Source of the DNA: Phytohabitans maris
Lineage (GTDB): Bacteria; Actinomycetota; Actinomycetes; Mycobacteriales; Micromonosporaceae
Assembly (NCBI RefSeq): GCF_031085175.1
Contig: NZ_JAVHUY010000008.1
Location: 186,001 to 250,000, forward strand
DNA length: 64,000 nt
Direction of reading: 5' to 3'
The notes under the pieces were generated by a model. The model ran no database searches. It saw only the letters and a list, made by a program, of their open reading frames with translations, and was not told the DNA's origin. The translations under genes were made by a program, and so were the position numbers. Positions 30,616 to 35,873 of this stretch are shown piece by piece; position 1 is the first letter of the stretch, and each line of letters opens with the position of its first letter.

Positions 30616-31530
30616 TCACGCCGTACGGGCGGGCAGCGGCTGTCGGGCGTGCTCGCGCAGGTGTCGCAGCACCTGGAGTACGGCGGGCAGCACCCGCGCC
30701 TGGCGGCGGTGCAGTGCGGTCATGGTGACGACGGTGCTGTCGCCGGCCAGTGGCCGGGTGACGATCAGCCCGGCCCGTTCGAGCGGGTCGCCGAGCACGC
30801 TGTAGTCGGGCAGGACGGTGAGGCCGATGCCTTCGGCGACCATCATCTTGCCCATCTCGGCGCCGTCGGTGGAGTGCCACGCGGCGGGCAGGTCGGAGCC
30901 GAAGAGCCGGTGGGCGAAGCGGTACATGAGGTAGCCGGAGCGCATCGCGACGAAGCGTTCCGCGCGTAGGTCGTCGGCCGAGATGGTCGCCTGGGCGGCC
31001 AAGCGGTGCCCGGCCGGCAGGACGGCCGCGGGGCGGCCCACGAGCAGGGGAGTGGGTTCGAGGTCGGGTGGTACGTCGTCGCCGTCGAGCAGGTTGACCA
31101 GGCCGAGATCCAGGGTGCCTTCGGCCAGCGACACCTGGATCTCGTCCTGTTGCAGGTTGCGGATCTCGACGGCGGCGCGGCCGTTTCCGGCCTGGAAGGC
31201 GCGCACGGCGGGTAGCACGAGCGAGGCGGTGCCCGCGTTGACGGTGCCGATGCGCAGCAACCGCCGGGTGGCCAGCTGGTCGCCGGCGGCGGCCTTGAGC
31301 CGGTCGACCGACTCCAGTACGTCGACGATCGGCTGGAGCAGCTCGCGGCCGGCGAGGCTGATCCGCGCGCCGGAGCGGTGCCGGTCGAGCAGGGTCACCC
31401 CGAGCTCCCGTTCGAGCTTGCGGATGGCCTCGCTGATGGCCGGCTGGGAGACGTGCAGCTGCTCGCTGGCCCGGCGCAGCGAGCCGTAGCGGGTCACGGC
31501 GGCGAGGTACTCGAGCTGCTCTATGCGCAT
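30616..31530 (-). CDS. LysR-type regulator of sulfonate genes
   Basis: The 304-residue protein has the LysR helix-turn-helix at residues 1-60 (MRIEQLEYLAAVTRYGSLRR, then LHVSQPAISEAIRKLERELG) and a periplasmic-binding-like effector domain behind it. ATG 31530 fits the family start; the longer open frame to 31650 does not. It is divergent from the leader peptide and the sfnB-ssuDE operon, and a palindrome with the T-N11-A LysR shape lies 89 bases upstream. Cbl/CysB-type LysR proteins activate sulfonate genes when sulfate or cysteine is scarce, so the same role here is a reasonable inference. Confidence 0.88.
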   Translation of the reverse strand: MRIEQLEYLAAVTRYGSLRRASEQLHVSQPAISEAIRKLERELGVTLLDRHRSGARISLAGRELLQPIVDVLESVDRLKAAAGDQLATRRLLRIGTVNAGTASLVLPAVRAFQAGNGRAAVEIRNLQQDEIQVSLAEGTLDLGLVNLLDGDDVPPDLEPTPLLVGRPAAVLPAGHRLAAQATISADDLRAERFVAMRSGYLMYRFAHRLFGSDLPAAWHSTDGAEMGKMMVAEGIGLTVLPDYSVLGDPLERAGLIVTRPLAGDSTVVTMTALHRRQARVLPAVLQVLRHLREHARQPLPARTA

Positions 31531-31618
31531 GGCGCACTCCCGTGGGTGATCGGGTCTGGCGTCCGGGTGATCGGCAACACCTTCCACGAGACGGCTTGCG
31601 CGACAATTACCTACTAAG

Positions 31619-31635
31619 CCTATAGTGCTTATAGG
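31619..31635. promoter_or_regulatory. LysR-type binding site
   Basis: CCTATA and TATAGG flank GTGCT, giving the T-N11-A pattern of LysR operators, in the divergent region between the LysR gene and the leader ORF. It also supplies the AT-rich patch expected at a promoter. Confidence 0.55.
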
Positions 31636-31639
31636 GAAT

Positions 31640-31690
31640 CTGTCGATCACCCTGGTCTGCCGATCAGCCCGATCTGCCGATCACCCCGAC
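31640..31690. repeat. Three tandem 17-bp repeats
   Basis: Units at 31640-31656, 31657-31673 and 31674-31690 share the core CTGyCGATCAsCC. They lie between the LysR site and the leader peptide, so in the 5' untranslated region of the sulfonate operon or overlapping its promoter. Confidence 0.75.
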
Positions 31691-31730
31691 CCTGTGGCCG
31701 GTTCGGCCCGTGACGTGCGAGGAGGTGCCG

Positions 31731-31796
31731 ATGATCGAGCCGGGTCTCGTCTGCCGTCGGCACGTCGACCTCCGGCGCACCGCCAGCTGTCGGTGA
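31731..31796 (+). CDS. Cys-containing leader peptide of the sulfonate operon
   Basis: A 21-residue frame (ATG 31731, TGA 31794-31796) has GGAGG at ideal spacing. It reads MIEPGLVCRRHVDL and ends RRTASCR. The core LVxRRHVDLxR...xCR followed by a stop is the pattern of actinobacterial putative leader peptides found before cysteine, sulfate and sulfonate genes. There, ribosome progress through C-terminal Cys codons is thought to report cysteine supply. A GC hairpin begins 6 bases after the stop, as expected for attenuation. The downstream operon encodes organosulfur use. Recognition is by pattern; regulation is inferred. Confidence 0.82.
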   Translation: MIEPGLVCRRHVDLRRTASCR

Positions 31797-31802
31797 GCTG
31801 AC

Positions 31803-31820
31803 GCGGGCCGGTCCGCCCGC
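31803..31820 (+). promoter_or_regulatory. Attenuator-like hairpin after the leader peptide
   Basis: GCGGGC and GCCCGC flank CGGTCC, starting 6 bases beyond the leader stop codon. A ribosome stalled on the terminal Cys-Arg codons would mask this stem. No U-tract follows, so Rho or translational coupling could be involved instead. Confidence 0.45.
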
Positions 31821-31866
31821 GCGCGGCTCCGCACACCCACTGCCCGCTACCGCGGCGCCTCCGCGC

Positions 31867-31974
31867 GCCCGTCGACGCCCGGAGCAGTGCCCGTCAACCC
31901 CCGGAGCAGTCCCGTCAACGCCCGCAGTGGCGCCCGTCAAGCCTGGAGTGGCGCCCGTGAACGCCTGGAGCACC
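31867..31974. repeat. Five degenerate tandem 21-22-bp repeats
   Basis: Units start at 31867, 31889, 31911, 31932 and 31953, each built on GCCCGTCAACGCCyGGAGyr. They lie between the leader hairpin and the deletion-scar pseudogene, and may have helped or resulted from the rearrangement there. Confidence 0.75.
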
Positions 31975-31979
31975 TGCCC

Positions 31980-32510
31980 GTGACCGCCAAGAAACGCCTC
32001 ATCCTCTTCCGCGGGTCGGCGGCGACCGCGATCCGGGAGGGGCTGCGGATCCCCGACAACGACCCCGCGTCGGTGGTACCGGCGATGGCCGCGGTGACGA
32101 AGCACCTGATGGCCGACGAGTACCTCGACGTGCTCTACAAGCTCTGGGAAGGCTCGTGGGACGACGACGCGATCCTCGCCGACCGGGACGGCAAGGTCTT
32201 CGCCGACCCGGCCAAGATCCGTCCGATCCACCACAAAGGACGGTGGTTCCAGGTCGAAGGGCCGGTGGCGCGTCTTCGACCCCGAGCCCAGGTGCTCGAC
32301 CTGCTCACCGACCTGCAGGACGAGCTCGGCGTGAGCTACCTGTTCATATCCCACGACCTGGGGGTGATCCACCACATGAGCGACCGGATCCTGGTCATGA
32401 AGGATGGCAAGGTGGTCGAGGAGGGCACCGCCGCCGACGTCTTCGAACGGCCCCGGCACCCGTACACGCGGCGGCTGCTCACCGCGGTGCCGCGGCTGGG
32501 GTCGGCGTGA
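31980..32510 (+). pseudogene. Deletion scar: flavin monooxygenase joined to ABC ATPase end
   Basis: One open frame strings together three unrelated pieces. RIPDNDPASVVPAMAAVTKHL is the early core of a DmoA/NtaA/SfnG-type flavin monooxygenase. It jumps straight to ADEYLDVLYKLWEGSWDDD and HKGRWFQVEGP, skipping about 70 residues that should lie between. Then, near 32262-32285, it switches to the C-terminal part of a dipeptide/nickel-type ABC ATPase (AQVLDLLTDLQDELG, LFISHDLGVIHHM, HPYTRRLLTAVP), lacking Walker A and signature. The genes once between them, probably permeases and a binding protein, are gone. The frame's stop overlaps the sfnB start (GTGA), so it may still be translated and couple sfnB. 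Confidence 0.82.
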
Positions 32511-33694
32511 GCGGCGTACCCGTGCTCGGGCCGGCCGAGGCGGTCGCGGTCGCCGCCGACCTCGCCGCCACCTTCGCCCGGGACGCCGCCGACCGCGACA
32601 CCAAACGCGTCCTGCCGCTGGTCGAGCTGGACCAGCTCAGCGAGTCGGGGCTGCTGGCGATCACCGTCCCGGCGCGGTTCGGCGGCGCCGACCTGCCGGT
32701 GGCGACCGTCGTCGAGGTGTTCCGGCTGCTCTCGACCGGCGACCCCAACATCGGCCAGATCCCGCACAGCCACTTCGTCTACGTCAACCAGCTGCGCCTG
32801 CGCGGCACCGACGCCCAGCGGAAGCTGCTCTTCGGCGAGGTGCTGGCCGGCCGCCGCTTCGGCAACGCCCAGTCGGAGGCGAACACCCGGCACGGGCGCG
32901 ACGTCAGGACCACGCTGACCGCCGACGGCCCGGGACACTGGCGGCTCAACGGCCGCAAGTTCTACGCCACCGGCGCGCTGCTGGCCCACCGGATCCCGGT
33001 GCTGGCCCACCGGGGCGACGGCGGCCCGCTGCACGTCGCCTGGGTGGACCGGCACGCCGAGGGCGTCGAGGTCGTCGACGACTGGAACGCACTGGGCCAG
33101 CGCACCACCGCCAGCGGCTCGGTGGTGCTGACCGACGTGGCCGTACCCGACGACCTCGTCACGCCGTACGCGGTCACCTTCGACGGGCCGCAGACCTACG
33201 GCGCGTACGCGCAGGCGCTGCACGCGGCGATCGACGCCGGCATCGCCCGCGCGGCCCTGACCGACGCGGCCGCGTTCGTCCGCGAGAAGAGCCGGCCGTA
33301 CCCGGACGCGCAGGTGGAGCGAGCCGCCGACGATCCCCTCGTGGTGCACGCCCTCGGCCAGATCGAGCTGTCGGTGCGGGCGGCCGAGGCACTGCTGGCC
33401 GAGGCGGCCCGGGCCGTCGACGCGGCCAACGCCGACCTGACCGCGTCCGCCGCGGCGCACGCCTCCCTCGCCGTCTGCGCCGCCCGGGCGGCCACCACAC
33501 ACGCGGCCCTCGAAGCGAGCGGCCGGCTCTTCGAGGTGGCCGGCACCCGGTCGGCCGCCGGCGGGCTCGGCCTCGACCGGCACTGGCGCAACGCGCGCAC
33601 CCACACCCTCCACGACCCCGCCGCGTGGAAGGTCCAGCACCTCGGCCGCTGGGCCGCCGACGGCACCCCGCCCCCCAACCACGGACAGGTGTGA
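32507..33694 (+). CDS. sfnB: SfnB-type acyl-CoA-dehydrogenase-like oxidoreductase
   Basis: The 395-residue flavoprotein is of the acyl-CoA dehydrogenase superfamily, sulfur-acquisition SfnB branch. It shows an all-helical N domain with VPARFGGADLP, the beta domain containing RFGNAQSEANTRHG and LNGRKFYATGALLAHRIPVLA near residues 125-165, and a C-terminal four-helix bundle ending LDRHWRNARTHTLHDPAAWK. SfnB-like enzymes work with flavin monooxygenases in desulfurisation of sulfones and related compounds. GTG 32507 overlaps the pseudogene's stop; ssuD begins 4 bases after its own stop. The operon context supports organosulfur use. Confidence 0.88.
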   Translation: MSGVPVLGPAEAVAVAADLAATFARDAADRDTKRVLPLVELDQLSESGLLAITVPARFGGADLPVATVVEVFRLLSTGDPNIGQIPHSHFVYVNQLRLRGTDAQRKLLFGEVLAGRRFGNAQSEANTRHGRDVRTTLTADGPGHWRLNGRKFYATGALLAHRIPVLAHRGDGGPLHVAWVDRHAEGVEVVDDWNALGQRTTASGSVVLTDVAVPDDLVTPYAVTFDGPQTYGAYAQALHAAIDAGIARAALTDAAAFVREKSRPYPDAQVERAADDPLVVHALGQIELSVRAAEALLAEAARAVDAANADLTASAAAHASLAVCAARAATTHAALEASGRLFEVAGTRSAAGGLGLDRHWRNARTHTLHDPAAWKVQHLGRWAADGTPPPNHGQV

Positions 33695-33697
33695 GCC

Positions 33698-34858
33698 ATG
33701 ACCGACCTGAAGTTCCACTGGTTCCTCCCCACGAACGGCGGCGACGGCCGGCAGATCGTCGGCGGCGGCCACGGCACACCCGCCGGCTCGGGCGGGCGCC
33801 CCGCCTCCGTCGCGTACCTCGGGCAGATCGCCCGCTCGGCCGAGCAGCTCGGTTTCGAAGCGGCCCTGACCCCGACCGGCGCCTGGTGCGAGGACGCCTG
33901 GATCACCACCGCGATGCTGAGCGGCGTCTCCGAGCGGTTGAAGTTCCTCGTCGCGTTCCGGCCCGGGCTCGTCTCGCCGTTCCTGGCCGCCCAGATGGCC
34001 GGTACCTTCCAGAACCTGTCCGGCGGCCGGCTGCTGCTCAACGTGGTCACCGGGGGAGAGAGCCACGAGCAGCGGATGTACGGCGACTTCCTGGACAAGG
34101 ACGCCCGCTACGAGCGCACCGGGGAGTTCCTCGACATCGTCCGCGCGTTGTGGTCCGGCAAGCCCGTCGACGTCGAGGGCCACCATTTCCGCCTCGCCGA
34201 CGCGGTCCTCTCCCAACTGCCCGACCCGGTCCCGCTCGTCTACTTCGGAGGGTCGTCGCCGGCGGCCCTCGACGTGGCGGCCCGGCACGTCGACGTCTAC
34301 CTCACCTGGGGCGAACCGCCGGCCGCCGTCGCGGAGAAGGTACGCCGCGTGCGCGAACTCGCCGAGCGGCGGGGCCGGAGCGTCGCCTTCGGGCTGCGGG
34401 TGCACACCATCGCCCGGGACAGCGCGGAGCAGGCCTGGGCCGAGGCCGACCGGCTGCTGGCCGGCATCTCCGAGGACCAGATCCGCCAGGTCCAGGCCGG
34501 CCTGCGGCGCAGCGAGTCCGAAGGCCAGCGCCGGATGCTCGCCCTCAACGGCGGTACCAAGGACGGGCTGGAGATCCACCCGAACCTGTGGGCCGGTGTC
34601 GGGCTGGTCCGCGGCGGCGCCGGCACCGCGCTCGTCGGCAGCCACCAGCAGGTCGCCGACCTGATCGAGCAGTACGTCGACGCGGGCATCACCGAGTTCG
34701 TGCTCTCCGGCTACCCGCACCTGGAGGAGGCGTACCGGTTCGGCGAAGGGGTGCTGCCCGAGCTGTCCCGCCGCGGGCTCTGGCGCCATCCGGCCCCCGG
34801 CCGCCGGTTGGCCCCGGCCGTACCCTTCGGCGCGCCGGCCCCGGCGGTGGCGCGATGA
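33698..34858 (+). CDS. ssuD: FMNH2-dependent alkanesulfonate monooxygenase
   Basis: The 386-residue protein is a luciferase-like monooxygenase close to SsuD. It begins LKFHWFLPTNGG, and shows LGFEAALTPTGAWCEDAW near residue 48, AFRPGLVSPFLAAQMAGTFQ near 88, LLNVVTGGESHEQRMYGDFLDKDARY near 115 and VYFGGSSPAALDVAA near 183. In E. coli SsuD the equivalent Cys54, His228, Arg297 regions form the active site, and Cys is present here in GAWCEDAW. It cleaves the C-S bond of alkanesulfonates with FMNH2 and O2, giving sulfite and an aldehyde. It overlaps the flavin reductase gene that supplies FMNH2. Confidence 0.93.
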   Translation: MTDLKFHWFLPTNGGDGRQIVGGGHGTPAGSGGRPASVAYLGQIARSAEQLGFEAALTPTGAWCEDAWITTAMLSGVSERLKFLVAFRPGLVSPFLAAQMAGTFQNLSGGRLLLNVVTGGESHEQRMYGDFLDKDARYERTGEFLDIVRALWSGKPVDVEGHHFRLADAVLSQLPDPVPLVYFGGSSPAALDVAARHVDVYLTWGEPPAAVAEKVRRVRELAERRGRSVAFGLRVHTIARDSAEQAWAEADRLLAGISEDQIRQVQAGLRRSESEGQRRMLALNGGTKDGLEIHPNLWAGVGLVRGGAGTALVGSHQQVADLIEQYVDAGITEFVLSGYPHLEEAYRFGEGVLPELSRRGLWRHPAPGRRLAPAVPFGAPAPAVAR

Positions 34859-35370
34859 GCGCGCGGATCGCGGTCGTGGTCGGCAACCCCCGGCCGGCCA
34901 GCCGCACCCTCGCGGCCGCGGCGTACGTCGCCCGGCAGCTCGCCGGGCGCGAGCCGGACCTCACCGTCGACCTGGCCACCCTGGGCCCGGCGCTGCTGGA
35001 CTGGGACGACCCGGGCGTGGCCCACCTGGTGGCCGAGGTCGGCGCGGCGGACCTGGTCGTGGTGGCCAGCCCGACCTACAAGGGCACCTACACCGGCCTG
35101 CTCAAGCTCTTCCTCGACCGGTTCGCCGGCGGTACGGGCCTGCGCGGCCTGGCCGTGCCGCTGCTGCTCGGCGCGGCACCGCACCATCACCTGGCCGCGG
35201 AGCTCACGCTGCGACCCGTGCTCACCGAGATCGGCGCGACGGTCCCCGGGCGCGGCCTGTTCGTGATCGACCGGCAGCACGACGACCCCGCCGCCTACGC
35301 CGACTGGCTGGCGGCCACCGGGCCGGTCGTCGCGGCCTTCCTACGGATCCGGGAGGAGGCGGCCACGTGA
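34855..35370 (+). CDS. ssuE: NADPH-dependent FMN reductase, SsuE/MsuE type
   Basis: The 171-residue flavodoxin-like protein begins RIAVVVGNPRPASRT, the phosphate-binding loop of the NADPH:FMN reductase family. It continues with LVVVASPTYKGTYTGLLKLFLDRF near residue 62, the conserved SPTYKG-TG-LK motif of SsuE, and LLLGAAPHHHLAAELTLRPVL near 100. It would reduce FMN for transfer to SsuD. The ATG overlaps the ssuD stop (ATGA) and its own stop overlaps the next GTG, so translation is chained. Regulation is shared with the operon led by the Cys leader peptide. Confidence 0.93.
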   Translation: MSARIAVVVGNPRPASRTLAAAAYVARQLAGREPDLTVDLATLGPALLDWDDPGVAHLVAEVGAADLVVVASPTYKGTYTGLLKLFLDRFAGGTGLRGLAVPLLLGAAPHHHLAAELTLRPVLTEIGATVPGRGLFVIDRQHDDPAAYADWLAATGPVVAAFLRIREEAAT

Positions 35371-35873
35371 CCACCCTGCGTACCAACCAGGACCTCGACC
35401 CCCACCGGCTGCGCGAGGTGTTCGGCATCTTCCCCAGCGGGGTGGTCGCGGTCGCCGCCCTCGTCGACGGCGCGCCCGTCGGCCTGGCCGCCAGCTCGTT
35501 CACGTCGGTGAGCCTCGACCCGCCACTGGTGTCGTTCTCCATCGCCAACGCGTCGAAGACCTGGCCGGACCTGCGGCGCGCGGCGCATCTGGGGGTCACG
35601 ATCCTGGCCGACCACCACTCCACCGTGGCCCGCCAGCTGGCCGGCGCCGTCAGCCAGCGGTTCGACGGACTGACCGTCACCGCGACGGCCGAGGGGGCGG
35701 TCACCCTCGACGACGGACTCGCCCATTTCGACACCACCATCTACCGCGAGGTACCCGCCGGCGACCACACGATCGTCCTGCTGCGCCTGCACGCGGTCCG
35801 CCCCGCCGGGCTGAGCGACCCGTCGCCGCTGGTCTTCCACCGCAGCCGGTTCGGCCGGCTCCAGCCCGGCTGA
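35367..35873 (+). CDS. Flavin reductase family (FMN-binding split barrel) protein
   Basis: This 168-residue protein is a split-barrel flavin reductase. It has LREVFGIFPSGVVAVAALVDG near residue 14, LAASSFTSVSLDPPLVSF near 38, the LGVTILADHHSTVARQLAG segment near 76, FDTTIYREVPAGDHTIVLLRL near 120 and PLVFHRSRFGRL at the end. It is the HpaC/SnaC-like type that reduces FMN or FAD with NAD(P)H for a partner monooxygenase. With ssuE directly upstream the operon has two unrelated flavin reductases, possibly for SsuD and for the lost second monooxygenase. Its GTG overlaps the ssuE stop. Confidence 0.9.
   Translation: MTTLRTNQDLDPHRLREVFGIFPSGVVAVAALVDGAPVGLAASSFTSVSLDPPLVSFSIANASKTWPDLRRAAHLGVTILADHHSTVARQLAGAVSQRFDGLTVTATAEGAVTLDDGLAHFDTTIYREVPAGDHTIVLLRLHAVRPAGLSDPSPLVFHRSRFGRLQPG

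Follow-up and report, generated by a model that had tools for sequence, protein, structure and literature searches.

A putative NF042934-family leader peptide ahead of a sulfonate-sulfur operon, and a constrained UGU codon among its relatives

Polycysteine leader ORFs of mycobacteria were reportedly the subject of work by Canestrari in 2020. Such leaders (NF042936) resemble the ORF described here in having a related core and a sulfur context; they differ from it in their Cys run and in being leaderless, whereas the present ORF has no such run and is led by a Shine-Dalgarno sequence with a 5' UTR. Seliverstov et al. 2005 (PMC1262725) describe cysteine leader peptides in Mycobacterium, Propionibacterium and Bifidobacterium and suggest Rho weakly; these too are short ORFs with Cys codons that precede cys genes without a terminator, but they have Cys runs, which lie near the stop. 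A third relative is NF042934, a widespread and little-studied family found before many kinds of sulfur genes. We report that an ORF in a 64-kb stretch of Phytohabitans maris DNA (the window) is a putative cis-acting leader peptide of this actinobacterial family at the head of a sulfonate-sulfur operon. It shares with NF042934 the core, the length and the placement ahead of sulfur genes, and differs in lacking Leu16-Cys17 and in its longer distance to the first intact gene.

The leader ORF and a damaged operon

The leader ORF comprises 21 codons, with ATG at 31731 and TGA at 31794-31796 (Table 1). A sequence-only reading had described an ORF of this length with an ideal GGAGG site, an LVxRRHVDLxR core and a Cys-Arg-stop end, and all of this was found, the ending being Cys(TGT)-Arg(CGG)-stop. 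The peptide scores 29.0 bits against NF042934 ('putative leader peptide', cis_reg_atten), whose curated cut-off is 27, and the match spans model positions 2-17 of 19; when the genome was scanned with the same model it scored 26.7 bits, or 27.2 with in-frame neighbours included. A control scan of 14 well-known genomes gave weak matches (E <= 10) in 10 and none above the cut-off, and we take the window leader to be more than a chance match. The kinship with actinobacterial leader peptides known ahead of sulfur genes, proposed in the same reading, is borne out by the NF042934 score and by the sulfur contexts of the family. Against NF042936 (leader_Ms4527A) the score is 21.8 bits, below the cut-off of 45. 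The two Cys codons are separate and form no run, as had been noted, and this is ordinary here: 37 of 99 distinct family cores, counted from core position 1 to the stop, contain a single Cys.

The window core, LVCRRHVDLRRTASCR, carries R4, D8 and R11. It has no UGU-encoded Cys17, since the stop TGA sits at core codon 17 and the last UGU is codon 15; there are 6 nt fewer between R11 and the stop than in relatives, so that Leu16-Cys17 is absent. The window leader is a genuine if somewhat degraded member of an established leader family, and with two residues missing between R11 and the end the copy may be impaired, weakly responsive or unresponsive.

Table 1. Features of the leader region and operon in the window
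Feature	Position	Strand	Remarks
LysR-family regulator gene, divergent	30619-31533	-	305 aa; stop 30616-30618; Pfam HTH_1 and LysR_substrate
Imperfect dyad CTACTAAGC / GCTTATAG around TATAGT (31621-31626)	31611-31634	+	read by eye
Shine-Dalgarno AGGAGG of leader	31720-31725	+	5 nt ahead of ATG
Leader peptide ORF (putative)	31731-31796	+	MIEPGLVCRRHVDLRRTASCR, then stop; NF042934 match and same-place leaders in G004 and G005
Last C-terminal Cys codon, TGT	31788-31790	+	core codon 15; TGT of relatives is core codon 17
C-rich, G-poor stretch, candidate Rho-loading region	31797-31916	+	base composition; Rho loading predicted
GC hairpin CGCGGGC-CGGTCC-GCCCGCG	31802-31821	+	7 bp (31802-31808 / 31815-31821)
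Imperfect repeats (GCCCGTcaACgCC...), period about 22 nt	31867-31988	+	five 13-nt copies; between leader and next ORF
Chimeric remnant ORF	31980-32510	+	NtaA/DmoA-type monooxygenase pieces and DppF-like ATPase C-terminus
sfnB (SfnB family sulfur acquisition oxidoreductase)	32507-33694	+	TIGR04022, 499.6 bits; cut-off 430.9
ssuD-like alkanesulfonate monooxygenase	33698-34858	+	TIGR03565, 436.8 bits; below cut-off 518.2
ssuE-like NADPH FMN reductase	34855-35370	+	TIGR03567, 79.8 bits; below cut-off 164.05
Flavin reductase-like protein	35367-35873	+	Pfam Flavin_Reduct above its cut-off

The leader precedes sulfur-metabolism genes on the same strand with a remnant ORF in between. The sequence-only reading had placed sfnB immediately next, which did not hold, as the chimeric ORF intervenes and sfnB, the first intact gene, starts 710 nt beyond the leader stop. 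Its naming of sfnB, ssuD and ssuE stands in full for sfnB, which exceeds its cut-off; the other two are ssuD-like and ssuE-like, falling below their curated cut-offs, and the latter matches Pfam FMN_red above that model's own threshold. The frame of the remnant is open from 31887 with a likely GTG start at 31980, and its TGA overlaps the GTG start of sfnB. It joins three monooxygenase fragments and one piece of 28 nt to the last 75 aa of a DppF-like ATPase.

A fuller form of the operon is present in three genomes of the same genus (G003, G004 and G005) and in one of another genus (G029), in the order NtaA/DmoA-type monooxygenase, about 5.7 kb of further genes up to the DppF-like ATPase, sfnB, ssuD and flavin reductase; an ssuE match was found among these only in G004 and G029. 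Relative to G004, the window shows deletions of 174 nt, 180 nt and then about 5.6 kb, about 6.0 kb in total, and 31866-31950, which takes in part of the repeat region, has no counterpart in G004. The remnant arose either by successive deletions, selected for coupling to sfnB, or through an assembly fault. A search of the rest of the genome for an unbroken version of this monooxygenase gave a best intact match of 49% identity.

The LysR gene adjoins the operon in all four of these genomes as well, with 88-95% identity. Both CCTACTAA and TATAGT are present again in G003, G004 and G005 and are degenerate in G029, and the dyad around TATAGT is likely to comprise a promoter -10 element and a regulator site. 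A consensus promoter scan of 31500-32600 returned none.

Leaders occur at the same place in G004 (MNGLALVTRRHIDLLRTASGLCR, then stop; 29.8 bits) and G005 (MSELALVSRRHVDLLRTASCLCR, then stop; 34.3 bits), and none was found there in G003 or G029, though the promoter-like site is present. This absence, together with the window copy being two codons shorter than those of G005 and G004 and the first genes behind it being a chimera, would fit a copy in decay that regulates nothing, irrespective of how the rest of the family behaves. We regard such decay as a distinct, if somewhat improbable, explanation of the window copy: its strong Shine-Dalgarno sequence, open frame and core are all intact, and in alignment with G005 the leader (31720-31811, 83%) is the only island between the promoter region (31500-31648) and the first gene, making it the best-kept stretch of that interval.

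A leader family with constrained residues and one constrained codon

Matches of the NF042934 type were found in all six genomes of the genus (E <= 0.05) and leaders in 140 of 150 genomes drawn from the family to which the window belongs (E <= 0.01). At E <= 0.001 they were found in 125 of 151 genomes of a mycobacteria-like family, in 147 of 147 of a Streptomyces-like order (both clade labels presumed) and in at least 28 of 396 genomes of a phylum sample, a lower bound with 22 candidates scored per genome. Of 200 leaders from a profile search of fetched loci, two below 20 bits were dropped and 198 kept; with repeats of one nucleotide core also dropped, there remained 156 different nucleotide cores, and the different 18-aa cores numbered 99; both counts include one false positive (L085) inside an NAD synthase gene, and the leaders counted are not independent, many being near relatives.

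The next genes fall into 29 clusters, one of them a false positive; the clusters rest on automatic choice of the next ORF, which is wrong in some cases (L029, for example). Most of the cluster representatives are genes of sulfur metabolism: rhodanese, sulfite reductase, monooxygenase, cysteine dioxygenase, sulfatase, cysteine synthase, TauE, ThiS-like, FMN reductase and NMT1-type binding proteins. Non-sulfur next genes also occur, namely zinc carboxypeptidase (8 leaders), a dicarboxylate symporter, a ROK protein and several unassigned proteins.

Some individual leaders deserve mention. The eight before the zinc carboxypeptidase-like gene (L219:3-1460, minus strand, and kin), which is not an obvious sulfur gene, have the form LTKRGHIDLLRVASAAC.... 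Eight others (L122 and kin), of the form LWRRVHMDL...CVC, precede cysteine dioxygenase, an enzyme that degrades cysteine, for which induction by low cysteine would be odd. In the genome of the window itself, a second leader (L027, C9:66877-66933; MGTLLTKRRAVDLCRVATCLCRPVI, then stop) precedes a rhodanese gene with Cys17 written TGT; its start codon lies near a -10-like TAAGCT, so that it is perhaps leaderless, and an inverted repeat across its stop is followed by GGTTTTGC. A third (L030, C30:4764-4817, minus strand; LTSRRHVDYGRVRSAICRAH, then stop) belongs to the sulfite reductase cluster and has kin in each of the other five genomes of the genus. L029 (C89:55790-55846) is a leader-like MPSTVFLTSRRAIDFGRVASGLCP, ending in a stop, that lies past a ATTCCTAC/GTAGGAAT dyad and has no clear same-strand gene behind it, and L033 (C4:148767-148820, minus strand) is a weak leader-like ORF, LTRRRAVDHGRLAASLCTG and stop, of 26 bits, in a DUF4395 cluster with Cys17 as TGT.

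Among the 156 leaders, R4 and R11 are kept in 156, D8 in 155, Cys17 in 149 and Leu1 in 147; the invariance of R4, D8 and R11 is partly a matter of selection, because the search profile favours such residues, and seven further leaders have Asp rather than R at position 4. At R4 the constraint lies on the peptide, since the residue is written with six codons (CGG 60, CGC 41, AGG 26, CGA 14, CGT 14, AGA 1; n=156). The segment RRHVDL as spelt in the sequence-only reading is not invariant: of the 156 leaders, 91 have H at position 6, 61 have A there and 4 have T, while position 5 is R in 117. Its letters turned up in the literature searched in one, unrelated, paper. A role of the core GACCTCC as an anti-Shine-Dalgarno element was also considered, and dropped because CCTCC is present in only 26 of 156 cores.

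Codon 17 is TGT in 146 of the 156 nucleotide cores, TGC in 3 and another codon in 7. Cys codons elsewhere in the same leaders number 52 TGT and 180 TGC (12 TGT and 67 TGC at position 10; 19 and 48 at position 15), those of nearby genes 229 TGT and 1295 TGC (TGT 15%) and those of the window genes 22 and 110. The search profile favours R4, D8, R11 and C17 as amino acids and does not favour UGU over UGC, and TGT at 17 is present in 26 of 27 next-gene clusters with Cys17. In a hold-out set of another 100 nucleotide cores (79 at the amino-acid level, 72 of these new), drawn from the high-scoring matches listed for two clades, one already a source of discovery leaders, codon 17 was TGT in 96, TGC in 3 and AGC in 1. 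The base after UGU shows a pyrimidine bias, with C 113, T 28, A 4 and G 1 in the 146 leaders with TGT at 17 and C 61, T 20, A 12 and G 3 in the hold-out. The strict UGU indicates that one cysteine codon matters as well as the conserved segment. The literature searched, with Canestrari 2020 and D'Halluin 2023 outside its scope, yielded no evident description of UGU choice in such leaders, and the codon-plus-peptide design appears to be unreported there.

One branch keeps the segment and lacks this codon. An unassigned gene was found in 22 of 61 Streptomyces-like genomes (E <= 1e-50), and at 19 of these 22 loci a leader stands with the core kept and no Cys at 17, the codon being AGC in 6, AGT in 6, GGC in 3, TGA in 2, ATG in 1 and CAT in 1; 15 of the 19 have Cys at 13 instead and three have no Cys in core 1-17. 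Nine other leaders at these loci, of which one had been counted before and one scores 17 bits, all have Cys17 as TGT. With 19 leaders before one gene family lacking Cys17, cysteine cannot be the whole story, and judging from this branch a leader can dispense with its cysteine part and still retain the peptide part. The earlier suggestion that stalling may depend on the RRHVDL segment itself survives in one half, the segment being conserved in the family apart from its Cys codons (R4, D8 and R11) and retained in this branch, and fails in the other, the most constrained feature being a Cys codon, UGU at core codon 17.

Were the leaders plain codon-counting cysteine attenuators, the Cys codons alone would matter and the other conserved residues would reflect common descent or RNA needs. 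The occurrence of Cys17 always as the slow type of codon, the poly-Cys members in mycobacteria-like genomes and the leaders with Cys runs and no terminators in Mycobacterium and others (PMC1262725) are all consistent with this, but R4 and R11 are constant across the 156 leaders while their codons vary, and the Cys17-less subfamily retains the same segment; we think this explanation unlikely.

RNA behind the leader stop

The GC hairpin that the sequence-only reading had placed 6 bases past the stop exists, its first base being the 6th after it. It pairs likewise in G004 and G005, with one pair changed on both sides (C-G to G-C). Its fold is no more stable than expected by chance (z = -0.02 for 31770-31860 and +2.07 for 31710-31990), and as a family trait it was not borne out: a hairpin of at least 7 bp starting no more than 12 nt past the stop is present in 13 of 156 leaders, against 13, 5, 6 and 8 of 156 at four downstream control places and 38 and 8 at two upstream ones. 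A post-stop fold common to the family was likewise rejected (mean z = -0.22 for 50-nt windows at the stop, 156 leaders); in the rhodanese group (56 leaders) a fold across the stop has a mean z of -1.35. No Rfam family reached its gathering score anywhere within the 64-kb window.

The base composition behind the stop does set the leaders apart. Over the first 60 nt, C minus G averages +0.139 in the family, with C exceeding G in 141 of 156, as against +0.029 and 153 of 285 in the flanks of genes with no leader ahead (Mann-Whitney p about 1e-19) and +0.019 past gene stops. The hold-out gave +0.177, with C exceeding G in 95 of 100, and the window has +0.17 (+0.167) over its first 60 nt and +0.18 over the next 60. 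Such a bias is the appearance that a Rho-loading region would be expected to have, and is no proof of Rho.

Two other ways of reading the RNA behind the leader can be weighed against these data. In translational attenuation, which PMC13236596 states for M. smegmatis cysteine genes with reference to Canestrari 2020, the ribosome-binding site of the next gene is buried in RNA structure until a stalled ribosome opens it. When codon 17 was masked in a folding model, Shine-Dalgarno accessibility did rise, from 0.05 to 0.25 for the 8 leaders before cysteine dioxygenase, where the site is strongly paired, and from 0.27 to 0.36 for the 13 of the monooxygenase group; across the 135 of 156 leaders modelled, however, the mean moved only from 0.30 to 0.33 (23 leaders up and 5 down by over 0.1), the window value dropped from 0.35 to 0.18, and no post-stop fold stands out in the family, all of which leaves this mechanism quite unlikely. 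Attenuation by an intrinsic terminator, at which the earlier mention of the hairpin hinted, is highly improbable: the 7-bp hairpin with its two-sided change is shared by the window, G004 and G005, but it has no U-run behind it in the window, a consensus scan of 31500-32600 found no terminator-like site and thus no classical intrinsic terminator before the first gene, U-rich runs within 80 nt past the stop occur in 6 of 156 leaders, and the hairpin is not enriched.

A proposed arrest at UGU and its significance

The explanation that we favour, tentatively and at slightly less than an even chance for the proposal as a whole, is a cysteine-responsive arrest at UGU, aided by the nascent peptide, that keeps Rho off the transcript. 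From the sequence patterns we infer the arrest, its trigger, the tunnel contacts and the part of Rho. Transcription would start about 90 nt upstream, from a promoter beside the LysR gene, and the leader would then be translated. When charged Cys-tRNA is scarce, the ribosome would arrest with residue 16 in the P site and the wobble-read UGU of codon 17 in the A site, while R4, D8 and R11, at -12, -8 and -5 in the tunnel, would strengthen the arrest. The arrested ribosome would abut the RNA, rich in C and poor in G, that begins with the stop codon, Rho loading would be barred and the sulfur genes would be transcribed; with plentiful cysteine, the ribosome would finish and leave, and Rho would stop transcription. 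The window copy is a derived member, ahead of a damaged first gene. Weighing against the proposal are the missing Cys17 of this copy and the absence of a leader, despite a promoter-like site, from two (G003 and G029) of the five genomes that carry the operon.

A similar layout is known from TnaC, for which PMC8429421 gives Trp12, Asp16, Ile19 and Pro24 as critical residues, with Pro24 in the P site, and a rut site directly behind tnaC that is masked by the stalled ribosome. There Trp12, Asp16 and Ile19 lie at -12, -8 and -5 from the P site, as R4, D8 and R11 would here, and an arrest near the stop has a rut region right behind it; the comparison is one of working only. No sequence relation is claimed, the inducer of TnaC is free tryptophan, and TnaC arrests at its stop codon whereas the leader here is proposed to arrest at UGU. 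Because the residues differ, equal offsets do not prove like contacts.

A wider claim, which is possible but doubtful, is that the leaders are two-part sensors in which the peptide sets the place of arrest and UGU is kept for dependence on Cys-tRNA, with Rho reading the outcome for a large part of the actinobacterial sulfur regulon. UGU would be preferred to UGC since wobble reading would tie the pause most closely to Cys-tRNA, and a sulfur-containing A37 modification of tRNA-Cys might perhaps be sensed as well. Attenuation of trp in E. coli responds to loss of a related tRNA modification. The Cys17-less subfamily, for its part, would keep the peptide arrest and answer another signal.

A near-invariant synonymous codon that is position-specific and replicated in the hold-out marks the exact codon to change, just as the offsets of R4, D8 and R11 mark the exact residues, and the window copy offers a natural two-residue variant beside intact relatives. 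If the proposal is true, codon sensing and nascent-peptide sensing would be joined in one leader, and a single small module would account for the way cysteine controls many sulfur operons in bacteria that produce antibiotics.
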